Positions 9,532 through 57,792 of a stretch of DNA of 64,000 bases are shown piece by piece; positions within the stretch are counted from its first letter, which is position 1; the number at the start of each line of letters is the position of its first letter. The notes under the pieces were generated by a model. The model did no database searches. It worked only from the letters and a program-made list of their open reading frames with translations, and was not told the origin of the DNA. Origin of the DNA: Pelagibacteraceae bacterium AG-430-F16 (GTDB lineage: Bacteria > Pseudomonadota > Alphaproteobacteria > Pelagibacterales > Pelagibacteraceae); contig QCOG01000002.1 of the NCBI GenBank assembly GCA_003213015.1, positions 72,001-136,000 of the forward strand, written 5' to 3'. Both the position numbers and the translations under genes were made by a program.

Positions 9532-10284
9532 TTACCAGGGAATTTCCTTTTTTTGTAAATTAATAAATTTACCATTTAACTTATTTTTCTTATCAAAAGC
9601 TATATTTAGTATGTATTCTGAACATTTGTCTGCACTAAGAAATCCTTTGGGATTCATATTTGTCTTAACATTTCCAGGGTCGATCGTTATTACTTCGGTT
9701 TTGTATCTCTTAAATAAATCAACTGATAAATTTTTTGAAATAGAATTTAGGGCAGATTTTGTTAATCTATAAATATAAGCATTACCTTGGTTATTAAGTT
9801 GTATACTTCCCCCATCACTACTTAAATTGATAATTTTTGATAAAAATTTAATTAAGTTTTTTTTTTCCATAACTTGTAAAATTTTTATAATTGAAACTGA
9901 ATTAATTTTAAATGTATTAAGTAAATTTTCAAATTCAATATTTTCTAATGATTGGTTATTTGAACCAAATATCCCAGCGCAATTAATTATAGTGTCGATT
10001 TTTTTGTTGGAAATAGTCTTATTCAAGTTTTCAAAATCTGAATAGTCACTTAAATTGCATTTTACCTTGATTAGGTTATTTGATCGAATTAAATCAAGAT
10101 TTGATTTGTTTGAATTATAAACACCTATTACTTTATTTTTATTTAATAAATTTTTTGTTAACGATAGCCCTATTCCAGAACTTGCACCAGTAATAAGAAA
10201 ATATTTTCCTGAAACAGAATTATTCCTTTTTTTGGTATACTTCAAGTTATATAGGGTTTTTTTAAATATTGTTCTTAATCCCAT
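9532..10284 (-). CDS. Short-chain dehydrogenase/reductase (SDR)
   Basis: An NAD(P)-dependent oxidoreductase with a classical SDR Rossmann fold. The cofactor loop TGASSGIG is at about 32-39, NCAGIFG (NNAG equivalent) follows, then the catalytic Ser in INLSSDGGSI and the YxxxK pair in YRLTK. A basic stretch of about 25 residues precedes the Rossmann fold. At 250 aa it has normal SDR length. It starts on the last base of the GT2 stop, so the two are probably translated together. Its position in a sugar-transferase cluster suggests a nucleotide-sugar or lipid-linked substrate, but this is not provable from sequence. Confidence 0.85.
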   Translation of the reverse strand: MGLRTIFKKTLYNLKYTKKRNNSVSGKYFLITGASSGIGLSLTKNLLNKNKVIGVYNSNKSNLDLIRSNNLIKVKCNLSDYSDFENLNKTISNKKIDTIINCAGIFGSNNQSLENIEFENLLNTFKINSVSIIKILQVMEKKNLIKFLSKIINLSSDGGSIQLNNQGNAYIYRLTKSALNSISKNLSVDLFKRYKTEVITIDPGNVKTNMNPKGFLSADKCSEYILNIAFDKKNKLNGKFINLQKKEIPW

Positions 10285-41271: not shown

Positions 41272-41412
41272 TCAGAACAAATATGTTAATATCGAAAAAA
41301 AAATAAAAATGAGAACTTTTATCTGAGTGATTCGGACTTGTTTTAGACTATTTTTGTTCTTAAGCGGTAACTATATATAGTATTAAAAAAATTTAACACA
41401 CCAAAAGTTGAA

Positions 41413-43893
41413 ATGACGAAAAATAAAATAACTGCTGTTCTCGGGCCTACCAACACAGGTAAAACCTTTCTGGCTATTGAAACAATGTTATCTTTTAGCT
41501 CTGGAATGATGGGTTTTCCCTTGAGGCTTTTAGCGAGGGAAGTTTATGACAAAGTTATTAAAAAAACTGATCCGAATAAAGTTGCATTAATCACAGGTGA
41601 AGAAAAAATAATTCCTTCAAACGCTAAGTATTATTTTTGCACTGTAGAGTCTATGCCTATTGAAAAAGATTTAGAATTCGTCGGCATAGACGAAATTCAA
41701 ATGTGCTCTGACCATGAAAGAGGTCATATTTTCACTGACAGATTATTGAATTTAAGAGGTGAAAAATTAACAATGTTCATGGGATCAAACTCAATGAAAA
41801 ATATTATTGATAAATTAGATGGAGATATTGAGTATATCGATAGAAAAAGACTGTCTAAATTAACTTACTCAGGTCACAAAAAAATTTCCCGAATAGATAG
41901 GAAAAGCGTAATTATAGCATTTTCAGCCGAAGAAGTTTATGCAATTGCCGAATTAATAAGGCGTCAAAAGGGTGGGGCTGCAATTGTGATGGGGTCTTTA
42001 AGTCCTAAGACAAGAAATTCACAAGTACAACTATATCAATCTGGGGATGTCGACTATCTTGTTGCAACTGATGCAATTGGTATGGGAATAAACATGGATT
42101 TAAATAATGTTTTTTTTTCAAGTATAAAAAAATTTGATGGTAAAAAAATACGGAGACTTAGGTTATCCGAAATTGCACAAATCGCTGGAAGAGCAGGCAG
42201 ATATCTTAATGATGGTTCCTTTGGAATAACAGGCGAATGTGGCGAGATAAGTCCTGAGGAAATTGAATTACTTGAAACTCATAAAATTGACGACATAAAT
42301 ATAATTTTTTGGAGGAATCCAAATTTAAATTTTAAAAATGGACAAGCGCTAATTAAATCCTTAGAGGAGAAGCCGAATAAACCCTGGCTAAAAAGAATTT
42401 CAGAGTGTGAGGACGAAAAAGTTTTAAAATATATTTTAAAAGATACTGAAAAATTACAAATTTTTAATAATGAAAATGAATTAAAATTATTGTGGGAATG
42501 CTGCCAGATTCCTGATTTTGTAAAAAAAACTTATGGAAATCATTTAGAAGTAATTGGAAAAGTATTTAATTTTTTAAGAGAAAAAACAGGGAAAATTTCT
42601 AATAAATACATGAAGGAACAACTTTCAATTTTAGACAAAGTTGATGGAAATGTAGATTCTATATCGAATCGAATTGCAAACGTAAGAACATGGTCTTATG
42701 TTTCTAACAAAAATGGGTGGGTAGAAAATCAAGATTATTGGGTAAAAAGAACAAAATCTTTAGAGGATAAATTATCTGATAGATTGCACGAAGAGCTTAC
42801 TAAGAGTTTTATAGATAAACGTGCAAGTGTACTAGCAAGAGGTTTAAAACAAGATATCTCCTTTGAGACACAAATTAAAAATGATGGAGAAGTTTTGATC
42901 AACAATCAATTCATTGGAAAGTTAAAAGGTCTAAAGCTTGAATTAGATTTTAAAGTTGGTGATTTAGAAACTGATATAAAATCTTTAAAAAAAGCTGCAA
43001 GACAAAATGTAAGCCCGGAAATTTCAAAAAGAATTAATCAAATAATTGAAGGAAAACAAATTGAATTAAAAGAAGATAGAAAAATTTATTGGAATAATTT
43101 TCCCATAGCAATGCTTTCTAAAGGTGCAGATTACCTTTCTCCAGAACTAAATTTAATTGTTGATGACATTGTGGAAAATGAAGAAAAATTTAAACTTCAC
43201 TCTTATCTAAAAAAATGGCTAGACACAAAAATTGCTGATGAATTAGATAGTTTATTTCAACTTAAGAGTATTAATTCAGTTAATGCTCAAATAAGGGCTT
43301 TATCTTATCAATTATATGAAAACAACGGTGTAGTAAAAAGAGAGGAGGTTTTAAATATCATTAATAATATAGGCCAAGATGAGAGAAAAATACTTAGAAA
43401 TTTAGGTGTAAAATTTGGCAGGTATCACATATTCTTATTCAAGCTTTTTAAACCGAGTGTTGTCTCTTTAAGAATTCTACTCTGGAAGAATTTCAATGGA
43501 GAAGACTTAAATTTATTTCCTCCTACTTTTGGATTAAATTTTGTGAATAACGTTAAATACAAAAACAAAAAATTTATGCTTTTATGTGGATTTGAAAAAT
43601 TTGAGAACTTTTTTGTTAGAATTGATATTTTAGAAAGATTGTTTATCGAAATAATAAACTCTAATGAAAATAAATCTGATAAAATAAAACTATTACCTAA
43701 AATGTTAAATTTGCTCGGTTGTAACAAAGATAGTTTTATAAAAGTCATTAAATTAATGGGATATAAAGTGTTTGATGAAAAAAATGAAACGTTTTTTAAA
43801 TATAAACCTTTTAAAAAGATTAAAAAAAGTTTAGATTTAAAAATTAAAAAAAATAATCCCTTTGAAGCATTAAAACAACTAGATCTAAAATGA
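41413..43893 (+). CDS. Suv3-type superfamily 2 RNA helicase
   Basis: Walker A is VLGPTNTGKTFLAIETML, Walker B is FVGIDEIQMCSDHERGHIF (DEIQ box), and motif III lies in KLTMFMGSNSM. The second RecA domain has LVATDAIGMGINM and QIAGRAGRYL. This matches the mitochondrial Suv3 degradosome helicase and its alphaproteobacterial homologues. At 826 aa it includes a long C-terminal region of unknown fold (about 350-826), which is Lys-rich at the end. A 141-bp untranslated region lies upstream, longer than usual here, so this is probably the start of the helicase-TerB-fdxA-carD transcript. It probably acts in RNA turnover. Confidence 0.88.
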   Translation: MTKNKITAVLGPTNTGKTFLAIETMLSFSSGMMGFPLRLLAREVYDKVIKKTDPNKVALITGEEKIIPSNAKYYFCTVESMPIEKDLEFVGIDEIQMCSDHERGHIFTDRLLNLRGEKLTMFMGSNSMKNIIDKLDGDIEYIDRKRLSKLTYSGHKKISRIDRKSVIIAFSAEEVYAIAELIRRQKGGAAIVMGSLSPKTRNSQVQLYQSGDVDYLVATDAIGMGINMDLNNVFFSSIKKFDGKKIRRLRLSEIAQIAGRAGRYLNDGSFGITGECGEISPEEIELLETHKIDDINIIFWRNPNLNFKNGQALIKSLEEKPNKPWLKRISECEDEKVLKYILKDTEKLQIFNNENELKLLWECCQIPDFVKKTYGNHLEVIGKVFNFLREKTGKISNKYMKEQLSILDKVDGNVDSISNRIANVRTWSYVSNKNGWVENQDYWVKRTKSLEDKLSDRLHEELTKSFIDKRASVLARGLKQDISFETQIKNDGEVLINNQFIGKLKGLKLELDFKVGDLETDIKSLKKAARQNVSPEISKRINQIIEGKQIELKEDRKIYWNNFPIAMLSKGADYLSPELNLIVDDIVENEEKFKLHSYLKKWLDTKIADELDSLFQLKSINSVNAQIRALSYQLYENNGVVKREEVLNIINNIGQDERKILRNLGVKFGRYHIFLFKLFKPSVVSLRILLWKNFNGEDLNLFPPTFGLNFVNNVKYKNKKFMLLCGFEKFENFFVRIDILERLFIEIINSNENKSDKIKLLPKMLNLLGCNKDSFIKVIKLMGYKVFDEKNETFFKYKPFKKIKKSLDLKIKKNNPFEALKQLDLK

Positions 43894-45464: not shown

Positions 45465-45506
45465 AAAAAAACGCTTCTCACACAAACGTTATGAGAAGCG
45501 TTTTTA
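45463..45506. terminator. Strong bidirectional rho-independent terminator
   Basis: ACGCTTCTCA (45471-45480) pairs perfectly with TGAGAAGCGT (45492-45501) around an 11-nt loop, with flanking A8 and T5 runs extending the stem. On the plus strand it ends the carD transcript. On the minus strand the complementary T-run follows the hairpin, so it also ends the Lys/Arg peptide gene transcript, whose stop is 12 bp away. Confidence 0.9.
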
Positions 45507-45517
45507 AAAAAGAAAAT

Positions 45518-45589
45518 TTATCTTCTTCTTCTTCTTTTTTTTGCTTTTTTCTTAGCTTTTTTCTTAGCTTTTTTTCTTCGTTTAGCCAT
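45518..45589 (-). CDS. 23-aa Lys/Arg/Ala-only basic peptide
   Basis: ATG to TAA encodes MAKRRKKAKKKAKKKAKKRR followed by three more Arg. Eighteen or more of the 23 residues are Lys/Arg and the rest are Ala apart from the start Met. GGGAG lies 7 bp upstream of the ATG, one of the clearest Shine-Dalgarno sequences in the window. Upstream on the same strand are a leader hairpin (45608-45626) and a perfect TTGACA (45665-45660). Downstream is the strong bidirectional terminator. The gene is between convergent carD and the fadD 3' end. The protein would bind nucleic acid or the ribosome by charge. I recognise no family. Confidence 0.7.
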   Translation of the reverse strand: MAKRRKKAKKKAKKKAKKRRRRR

Positions 45590-45607
45590 CTTTAGCTCCC
45601 TGTTGTT

Positions 45608-45626
45608 ACGAATCTTTTTGATTCGT
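45608..45626 (-). promoter_or_regulatory. Leader hairpin of the basic peptide gene
   Basis: ACGAATC-N5-GATTCGT is a perfect 7-bp inverted repeat with a loop of five identical bases. It lies between the presumed promoter and the GGGAG ribosome-binding site, near the 5' end of the predicted transcript. It could protect the mRNA end or be a protein-binding site. Confidence 0.5.
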
Positions 45627-45635
45627 TATAAGTTA

Positions 45636-45665
45636 ATTCTTAAATATTTTCTTTTGTTATGTCAA
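45636..45665 (-). promoter_or_regulatory. Putative promoter of the basic peptide gene
   Basis: On the minus strand a consensus TTGACA (45665-45660) is followed after 18 bp by AAGAAT (4 of 6 matches to TATAAT), placing the start point just before the leader hairpin. The -35 is exact but the -10 is weak. Confidence 0.4.
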
Positions 45666-45786
45666 ACATTTAATTAGTTATAAATCTATTCATCAATTAG
45701 CAAAAAATTAAAATTTTTTTTTTAAATGTTAAAAGTTAAAAAAGAATAGTGTTTATGCGCATTATAATCAAGTTTGTTTGTTAAAT

Positions 45787-54735: not shown

Positions 54736-55848
54736 TTAACCTTTCATCGGCATTATCACAAAAATGCTGTCAAAATCGCTTGGATCTTTTATTAATGCTG
54801 GTGACGCAGTGTCATTAAAAAAAATTTCTATTTTTTCACCTTCTAACTCACTAGCAACATCTATCAAATATTTAGAGTTGAAAGTTATATCTAAGTCATG
54901 TTCAAATTTCACAGAAACACTTTCATTTCCATCACCACTATGAGTATTGTTGACTGATAGATCGAGTTTATCCTTTGACAATTTAATTTTTACTCCATCT
55001 TTTTTGTCTGTAGAAACAGACGCAACTCTATCTACACTGCTTTTAAATAATTCTAAATCTGCTTCCATCTTTTTCTTATTATTTTTCGGAACAACTTGAG
55101 CATAATTGGGAAATTTTCCATCTATAACTTTTGAAATAAGGACACTGTTGTCCATGGAAATTTTAATTTTTGTTTTTGAATTTGAGACTTTGATTTTTCC
55201 TTGGTTGTTTTCAAGTATTGAACAAAGTTGAAAAATTGTTTTTTTTGGTAATATTATCGGTTCAAAGTTGATGGGTTTATCAAGTCTCATTTTCGATATA
55301 GACATTCTATGAGAGTCTGTTGAAACAGCAGTCAAAAAGTTTTTATCATCCCCACTAGTAAAATGTAAAAAAATACCACTTAAATAATGTCGAGTTTCAT
55401 CATTCGAAATTGAAAACTTGCATTTATTTAATAGCTTTAAAAAACTTTGCGAGTCTAAACTAATTTCTTCAGCCTCAAATACTTCTTCCATTAATGGAAA
55501 TTCCTGAGGATCAATGCAATTTAATTTAAATTTTGATTTTTCAGACTCCAGTTGCATCTTATTTTCTGACAGACTTTCTAAGTTAATTTTTTTTCCTGAA
55601 CTGAATTTTCTGACAATATCGTACATTATAAGAGAATTTGTGGTTGTTTTGCCTTCCTTTTCAATTTCAACACTTTGAATTCGATGAACAAAAATCATAT
55701 CTAGATCTGTTGCGGTTATAATTAGTTCTTTCCCACTCGCCTCTAAAAGAACATTAGATAAAATTGGCAGTGTACTTCTTCTTTCAATTACATTTTGACA
55801 AAAACTTAATGACTCTTGGAGATCTTTTTGATTTACACTAAACTTCAT
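54736..55848 (-). CDS. dnaN: DNA polymerase III beta sliding clamp
   Basis: The ring-shaped processivity clamp. The protein starts MKFSVNQKDLQESLSFCQNVIERRSTLPILSNVLL, the standard beta-clamp opening, then has three repeated clamp folds over 370 aa. It ends with ALIKDPSDFDSIFVIMPMKG, where the family has the MP(M/V)R terminus. It overlaps the dnaA 3' end by 11 bp, so dnaA and dnaN are one transcript. recF does not follow: the next gene is convergent plsC. Confidence 0.96.
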   Translation of the reverse strand: MKFSVNQKDLQESLSFCQNVIERRSTLPILSNVLLEASGKELIITATDLDMIFVHRIQSVEIEKEGKTTTNSLIMYDIVRKFSSGKKINLESLSENKMQLESEKSKFKLNCIDPQEFPLMEEVFEAEEISLDSQSFLKLLNKCKFSISNDETRHYLSGIFLHFTSGDDKNFLTAVSTDSHRMSISKMRLDKPINFEPIILPKKTIFQLCSILENNQGKIKVSNSKTKIKISMDNSVLISKVIDGKFPNYAQVVPKNNKKKMEADLELFKSSVDRVASVSTDKKDGVKIKLSKDKLDLSVNNTHSGDGNESVSVKFEHDLDITFNSKYLIDVASELEGEKIEIFFNDTASPALIKDPSDFDSIFVIMPMKG

Positions 55849-57241: not shown

Positions 57242-57531
57242 GTGAAGTTATTTCTAGCTAATCTTTAAAAAATCTTTATTCAATAAAATATTTCTCTGAT
57301 CAAAAGAAATTTAAAATCCTTAATTGAATGAAATTAAAAATTGTATAAATTTATGATTGAAAAACGATTAGCCTTAAAATTGAATTCAATTTTTAATATT
57401 TAAGTAAATAAAGATTTACTTTTTTGATTTACAAAAACTCCAACATGTTGTGTTTAAAGTTTAGAACCTAATTACATTTTGTGGCAAGACTTTTTTCTAT
57501 ATATGGTAAAAAAGATTTAACCGGAGGTTGT
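57242..57531. other. dnaA-rpsT intergenic region, palindrome-rich
   Basis: The longest gene-free stretch in the window. Within about 75 bp it holds three perfect dyads: AAAATTGAATTCAATTTT (57376-57393), AAGTAAAT-AAAG-ATTTACTT (57402-57421) and CAACATGTTG (57441-57450). Two degenerate DnaA-box-like 9-mers read on the minus strand lie nearby: TTAAACACA (57457-57449, 7 of 9 matches) and CTTGCCACA (57488-57480, 6 of 9). It is the upstream region of dnaA on the minus strand. There is no canonical TTATCCACA, so I call it regulatory or origin-like only tentatively. Confidence 0.5.
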
Positions 57532-57792
57532 TTAGAGAGAATTTATTTTTCTCGTAATCTTAGAAACGTTTCGAGTTGCGTTTCCTTTTTTAATTACACC
57601 GGTCTTAGCAATTTTCATTAATTCTGAGTTCAATTTGGGTAAGTAGGAAAGGGCTTCCTTCTTTTTCTTACTATCAATCAATTTTTTCATTTTTTTTAAG
57701 GCAATTTTATAACGGCTTTTACGGGTCTTATTAACCTCTGTTTGCCTTTTTATTCGTCTAATTCTTTTAATTGCTGATTTTGTATTTGCCAT
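57532..57792 (-). CDS. rpsT: 30S ribosomal protein S20
   Basis: An 86-aa basic protein with the S20 opening MANTKSAIKRIRRIKRQTEVNK and the C-terminal helix IKKGNATRNVSKITRKINSL. It binds the 5' and 3' minor domains of 16S rRNA. It follows mutM on the same strand with 47 bp between and is directly upstream of the dnaA leader, the mutM/rpsT/dnaA order known from several alphaproteobacteria. A weak AACC-TCC-GGTT dyad just after its stop (about 57520-57531) could be part of a terminator. Confidence 0.96.
   Translation of the reverse strand: MANTKSAIKRIRRIKRQTEVNKTRKSRYKIALKKMKKLIDSKKKKEALSYLPKLNSELMKIAKTGVIKKGNATRNVSKITRKINSL

Follow-up and report, generated by a model that had tools for sequence, protein, structure and literature searches.

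What is known of NrdR concerns mainly its control of ribonucleotide reductase (RNR) genes. Its operators contain two copies of the consensus acaCwAtATaTwGtg placed at integral helix turns (PMC4009431). In the NrdR boxes of S. coelicolor, conserved G-C pairs are situated at 9/18 and 40/49, which gives a C-N8-G core and a distance of 31 bp, about three turns (PMC9110341), while the boxes of E. coli are separated by a 15-bp linker (PMC12176259). topA of P. aeruginosa, which has an NrdR site and is activated, is the one other target found reported (PMC4409342). The nrdR gene itself clusters with dnaA in some species, a feature distinct from NrdR boxes at dnaA (PMC4898720), and nrdR deletions exist in Caulobacter (PMC12186491). 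A literature search covering few subscription papers found no report linking NrdR boxes to dnaA, gcrA or ccrM.

Symmetric elements of the rpsT-dnaA spacer

The window, the whole 64-kb stretch of DNA analysed here (G000:C2:72001-136000), belongs to a Pelagibacteraceae (SAR11) genome of 1.1 Mb in 13 contigs. Rfam scan of the window identified three tRNAs and nothing else. dnaA and dnaN probably form one operon, and the rpsT-dnaA order is kept in about 95 relatives. The initial annotation had described three dyads and two DnaA-like motifs in the 290-bp spacer between rpsT and dnaA, and all of them were confirmed in position (Table 1). It had also called the spacer the longest gene-free stretch of the window, which is imprecise, as 45465-45786 (322 bp) contains no ORF of at least 110 aa.

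Table 1. Features of the dnaA region and related loci (window coordinates except for the origin-type locus)
Feature	Sequence	Position	Strand	Remark
dnaN		54736..55848	-	Pfam DNA_pol3_beta domains; coordinates overlap dnaA end
dnaA		55838..57241	-	Pfam Bac_DnaA, Bac_DnaA_C, DnaA_N
18-bp palindrome	AAAATTGAATTCAATTTT	57376..57393	.	inner 14 bp in 10/11 close relatives
8-4-8 hairpin	AAGTAAAT/ATTTACTT	57402..57421	-	dnaA leader; stem invariant in 11/11 close relatives
Predicted NrdR-type box 2	ACACAACATGTTGGAG	57438..57453	-	includes CAACATGTTG and the end of TTAAACACA
10-bp palindrome	CAACATGTTG	57441-57450		core of NrdR-type box 2
DnaA-like motif	TTAAACACA	57449-57457	-	
Candidate sigma70-type promoter	TTGCCA-18-TAAACT	57458..57487	-	overlapped by box 1, then box 2
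Predicted NrdR-type box 1	CCACAAAATGTAATTA	57469..57484	-	starts 31 bp upstream of box 2
DnaA-like motif	CTTGCCACA	57480-57488	-	
rpsT (S20)		57532..57792	-	Pfam Ribosomal_S20p; conserved neighbour upstream of dnaA
Second NrdR-type box in window	TAACTATATATAGTAT	41368..41383	+	45 bp before Suv3-like helicase gene
Suv3-like helicase gene		41413-43893		Pfam DEXQc_Suv3
hemE-ppsR origin-type locus		G000:C2:194623-194902		DnaA boxes; ~65 kb from dnaA

The symmetry, which had been described as dense, is real, but its density by itself is only mildly unusual. When the 290-bp spacer was shuffled with its dinucleotides kept, 1.6% of the shuffles had an 18-bp palindrome, 24% an 8-bp hairpin and 0.9% both. 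By chance alone, a spacer of this length should contain about one 10-bp palindrome, and elsewhere in the window there are four more palindromes of 18 bp or longer, with a maximum of 24 bp. The significance of the dyads comes from their conservation and not from their density. Lack of conservation of the dyads among relatives had been named in advance as counting against an operator or origin, and such a lack was not observed. CAACATGTTG is kept genus-wide as a dyad class, whereas the 8-4-8 hairpin and the 18-bp palindrome are kept in close relatives only and showed no clear conservation in sister clades. TAGTAA/TTACTA dyads occur nearby in the sister clades. Within the close clade (11 relatives), ACACAACAT and CTTGCCACAAAAT are invariant.

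NrdR-type boxes at dnaA and at other genes

Both "DnaA-like boxes" (CTTGCCACA and TTAAACACA) are the left ends of predicted 16-bp NrdR-type boxes. As in NrdR operators, box 2 is a palindrome of 16 bp that comes close to acaCwAtATaTwGtgt and has its C and G spaced by 9 bp. Box 1, which overlaps the right part of CTTGCCACA, is only half-conserved by the same measure, as the left C and the central AT are kept while the right G is changed to A. This right-hand consensus G is absent here and in most relatives, and box 1 of nrdA likewise lacks the left C. Start to start, the two boxes at dnaA are three helical turns apart in the window, and the 30-31 bp found in relatives also agrees with the integral turns of NrdR operators. 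The core CWANATNTWG was present in 69 out of 77 non-redundant Pelagibacteraceae spacers, compared to a mean of 3.2 and a maximum of 8 in shuffles. The offset of box 1 was measured by anchoring the spacers of relatives on box 2. In all 76 anchored spacers, a second box that keeps C and the central AT lies upstream at a distance of 30 or 31 bp. The mean score formed a sharp peak of 14.0 at offset -30, while its average for all offsets was 9.5 (s.d. 1.04).

The boxes are situated about 200 bp before the ATG of dnaA, much further than at gcrA or nrdA. The TTGCCA-18-TAAACT element which box 1 overlaps is a consensus-scan match only, of a kind no commoner than in shuffles. In many relatives, a conserved T-rich block followed by TTGCAA-N17-TAACTG was found just before the dnaA ATG, and this could be a second dnaA promoter. 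In the dnaA spacers L039, L101, L104 and L105, a conserved block CACTCnnAGATTTTATTTTTTTT (or CAATC...) precedes a TTGCAA element near the ATG, and some genomes have two or three tandem copies of it. A convincing box pair at dnaA was not found in 16 genomes of the sister family, nor was the pair found in another genus of Pelagibacteraceae. The dnaA link is therefore lineage-specific and looks like a novelty that arose in this genus.

The same pair at 31 bp is present in the nrdA promoters of 11/11 relatives including this genome, where box 2 of nrdA is ACACAACATATAGTTG and shares ACACAACAT with box 2 of dnaA. A GTTC-N7-GTTC motif (GTTCTATAAATGTTCT), the LexA-type pattern of alphaproteobacteria, occurs just upstream of the nrdA boxes in most promoters (L167-L177), and nrdAB may also be under SOS control. 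With regard to RNR type, the Pelagibacteraceae (G000-G036) have NrdA and NrdB, while the sister family (G037-G058) has a single class II-like protein of about 1200 aa. nrdR was found in 8/8 genomes checked. The NrdR of this genome (G000:C4) matches TIGR00244 at 160.5 bits together with PF22811 and PF03477 (Zn-ribbon and ATP-cone), and its Zn-ribbon DSR and RRRR motifs align to solved NrdR structures; by these domains and motifs it is a normal NrdR. The box pair was not found in the 3-kb locus of nrdR itself, which lies behind glyA.

To survey this genome, 262 kb sampled from it were scanned for box pairs with the published NrdR consensus only. Four pairs scored at least 36 where 0.45 were expected. 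At a score of at least 34, only three intergenic pairs were present, upstream of gcrA, dnaA and the Suv3-like helicase gene, and the score of the dnaA pair was reached by none of 3000 shuffled dnaA spacers. A single high-scoring NrdR-type box, AAGCTATATTTAGTAT, was also observed at window positions 9597-9612.

The gcrA pair of this genome (L149:15029-15074; G000:C2:35029) is directly upstream of the gene. All 17 Pelagibacteraceae genomes (17/17) have gcrA boxes, in almost every case two of them spaced by 31 bp. The gcrA box in L218 equals the full NrdR consensus. An NrdR-type box is present at ccrM in 15/15 SAR11 genomes. The ccrM box is strong (ACACAATATATTGAGT and variants), about 106-127 bp before the aligned start (L225-L239), and in many cases a half box, ACACAA, comes 31 bp after it. 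With the cut-off used, 15 of 17 relatives have the helicase box at the corresponding position, and one more has a weaker box. Outside this family, the sister family showed a pair, its boxes spaced by 31-32 bp, upstream of gcrA (13/13) and of RNR (14/14). Among 28 other alphaproteobacterial genomes, sampled mostly one per family, a pair upstream of gcrA reached p < 0.01 in 19, and the mean score peaked at exactly 31 bp. From this distribution, the link between gcrA and NrdR looks old and class-wide.

Replication origin and alternative explanations

Plain GC skew told nothing about the origin, since it tracks the orientation of genes. Fourfold-degenerate third positions were therefore counted per gene strand, which separates replication effects from those of transcription. 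In the complete relative G012, the best switch of the strand-corrected T/A skew was at 1,261,000, inside hemE (1,260,950-1,261,942), and dnaA (1.199 Mb) was worse as switch point by 12.5 quasi-log-likelihood units. The fourfold G/C skew was weak, and in the window's own contig the T/A skew alone did not decisively separate hemE from dnaA. The inferred leading strand of G012 is A-rich and not T-rich at fourfold sites in the sampled stretches, a sign opposite to the common bacterial pattern. Within its 280 bp, the hemE-ppsR spacer of this genome has two perfect DnaA boxes and four near ones, where 0.04 perfect and 1.15 of all kinds are expected, and that of G012 possesses 2 perfect and 3 near boxes. 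The rpsT-dnaA spacer contains no perfect and one near box in 290 bp against 1.3 near boxes expected, hence no cluster above chance. The gene order at the former locus is hemE-spacer-ppsR-maf-aroE-coaE-dnaQ, the order of Caulobacter-type origins and the usual one in alphaproteobacteria. Since the skew switch of G012, the cluster of DnaA boxes and this gene order coincide, the predicted origin sits at hemE-ppsR, about 65 kb from dnaA. An origin of replication in the dnaA spacer was one of the two proposals of the initial annotation, which had suggested cumulative GC skew as one check, and a skew minimum together with a cluster of DnaA boxes at another place as counter-evidence. The spacer is AT-rich and dyad-rich, and oriC adjoins dnaA in many bacteria; set against the hemE-ppsR locus with its skew switch, boxes and gene order, that proposal is hardly credible.

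The other proposal, a dnaA operator, is supported as an operator of NrdR type and not as one for DnaA itself. Autoregulation of dnaA is common in other bacteria, and TTAAACACA is only one mismatch from a DnaA box, which could make it and CTTGCCACA degenerate sites for DnaA. The spacer nevertheless has no excess of such boxes, canonical DnaA boxes occur in only 3/77 spacers of relatives, and among close relatives the first four letters of TTAAACACA, which stand before ACACA and are required in a DnaA box, vary freely while ACACAACAT stays, all of which makes autoregulation very improbable. The dyads could also act mainly in the 5' leader, as RNA structures controlling dnaA translation. RNAalifold predicted hairpins including AAGTAAAT/ATTTACTT and AGCTAATC/GATTAGCT with some G-U changes, but two-sided change was seen in only 1 of 59 predicted pairs, a covariation too weak for structured RNA, and the invariant 8-4-8 stem gives no covariation evidence. 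As the loopless 10-bp palindrome forms no stable hairpin, this explanation also leaves the genus-wide element unaccounted for and is unlikely as the main role of the dyads; leader structure may coexist with the operator and concern the 18-bp palindrome and the 8-4-8 hairpin. It is distinctly unlikely, too, that the paired palindrome is the operator of another dimeric regulator of cell-cycle genes which also controls nrdAB. The set of targets (dnaA, gcrA, ccrM and the helicase gene) is indeed broader than the described NrdR regulon, yet the consensus, the C-N8-G core, the three-turn spacing and the presence at RNR promoters all fit NrdR, a gcrA box identical to its full consensus exists, and nrdR is present in every genome checked.

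Proposed regulation and comparison with known systems

The observed motif with its conserved spacing and sequence, the operator of the same type at nrdA and the finding of nrdR in the genome argue for the rpsT-dnaA spacer as a tandem NrdR-type operator of dnaA(-dnaN). In this reading, to which we give a probability of about 0.8, NrdR would tie dNTP supply to initiation and to GcrA/CcrM. NrdR binding, the position of the promoter and the sign of regulation at dnaA are what we infer from these features. Two 16-bp boxes 31 bp apart would present the geometry bound by one NrdR tetramer. NrdR with dATP and ATP would bind both boxes and repress, and when replication draws dNTPs down, nrdAB, dnaA-dnaN, gcrA and ccrM would be released together. 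Initiation capacity (dnaA), RNR, gcrA, ccrM and the Suv3-like helicase would thus rise and fall jointly with dNTP demand. Repression is the most likely sign at dnaA, and activation, as at topA of P. aeruginosa, is possible.

A wider proposal, to which we give slightly better than even odds, is that control of the cell cycle by NrdR, as a sensor of dNTPs acting through gcrA, is old and common to the class Alphaproteobacteria. In the ctrA-less SAR11, its regulon would have grown to ccrM, the Suv3-like helicase and finally dnaA, and dNTP status would gate initiation. If NrdR controls dnaA, gcrA and ccrM, dNTP sensing would be wired directly into the replication decision. This would concern bacteria that rank among the most abundant groups in the ocean and are without the usual master regulator CtrA, and would give a concrete and testable account of cell-cycle control in streamlined cells. 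The gcrA link is testable in a tractable alphaproteobacterium, e.g. Caulobacter.

Judged by its sequence, the dnaA site is an operator of a familiar kind, and what is new is the kind of gene it precedes. It resembles the NrdR operators of RNR genes (E. coli nrdHIEF and nrdDG, S. coelicolor nrdRJ) in its paired 16-bp palindromes with C-N8-G and central AT at 30-31 bp, in the presence of the regulator gene, and in the occurrence of the same operator at nrdA in the SAR11 genome. It differs from them in that the target is the initiator gene dnaA, one box is half-conserved and the distance from the start codon is large. P. aeruginosa topA (PMC4409342) is likewise a non-RNR target of NrdR in DNA metabolism, but it has a single box and is activated, while SAR11 dnaA has paired boxes. 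The Caulobacter-type oriC, between hemE and the RP001/ppsR-like gene, has its counterpart with DnaA boxes here, away from the dnaA spacer. As in the DnaA-GcrA-CtrA-CcrM circuit of Caulobacter, dnaA, gcrA and ccrM are linked cell-cycle genes; unlike in that circuit, Pelagibacter has no ctrA ortholog (PMC2877005), and the upstream element shared by these genes is of NrdR type.
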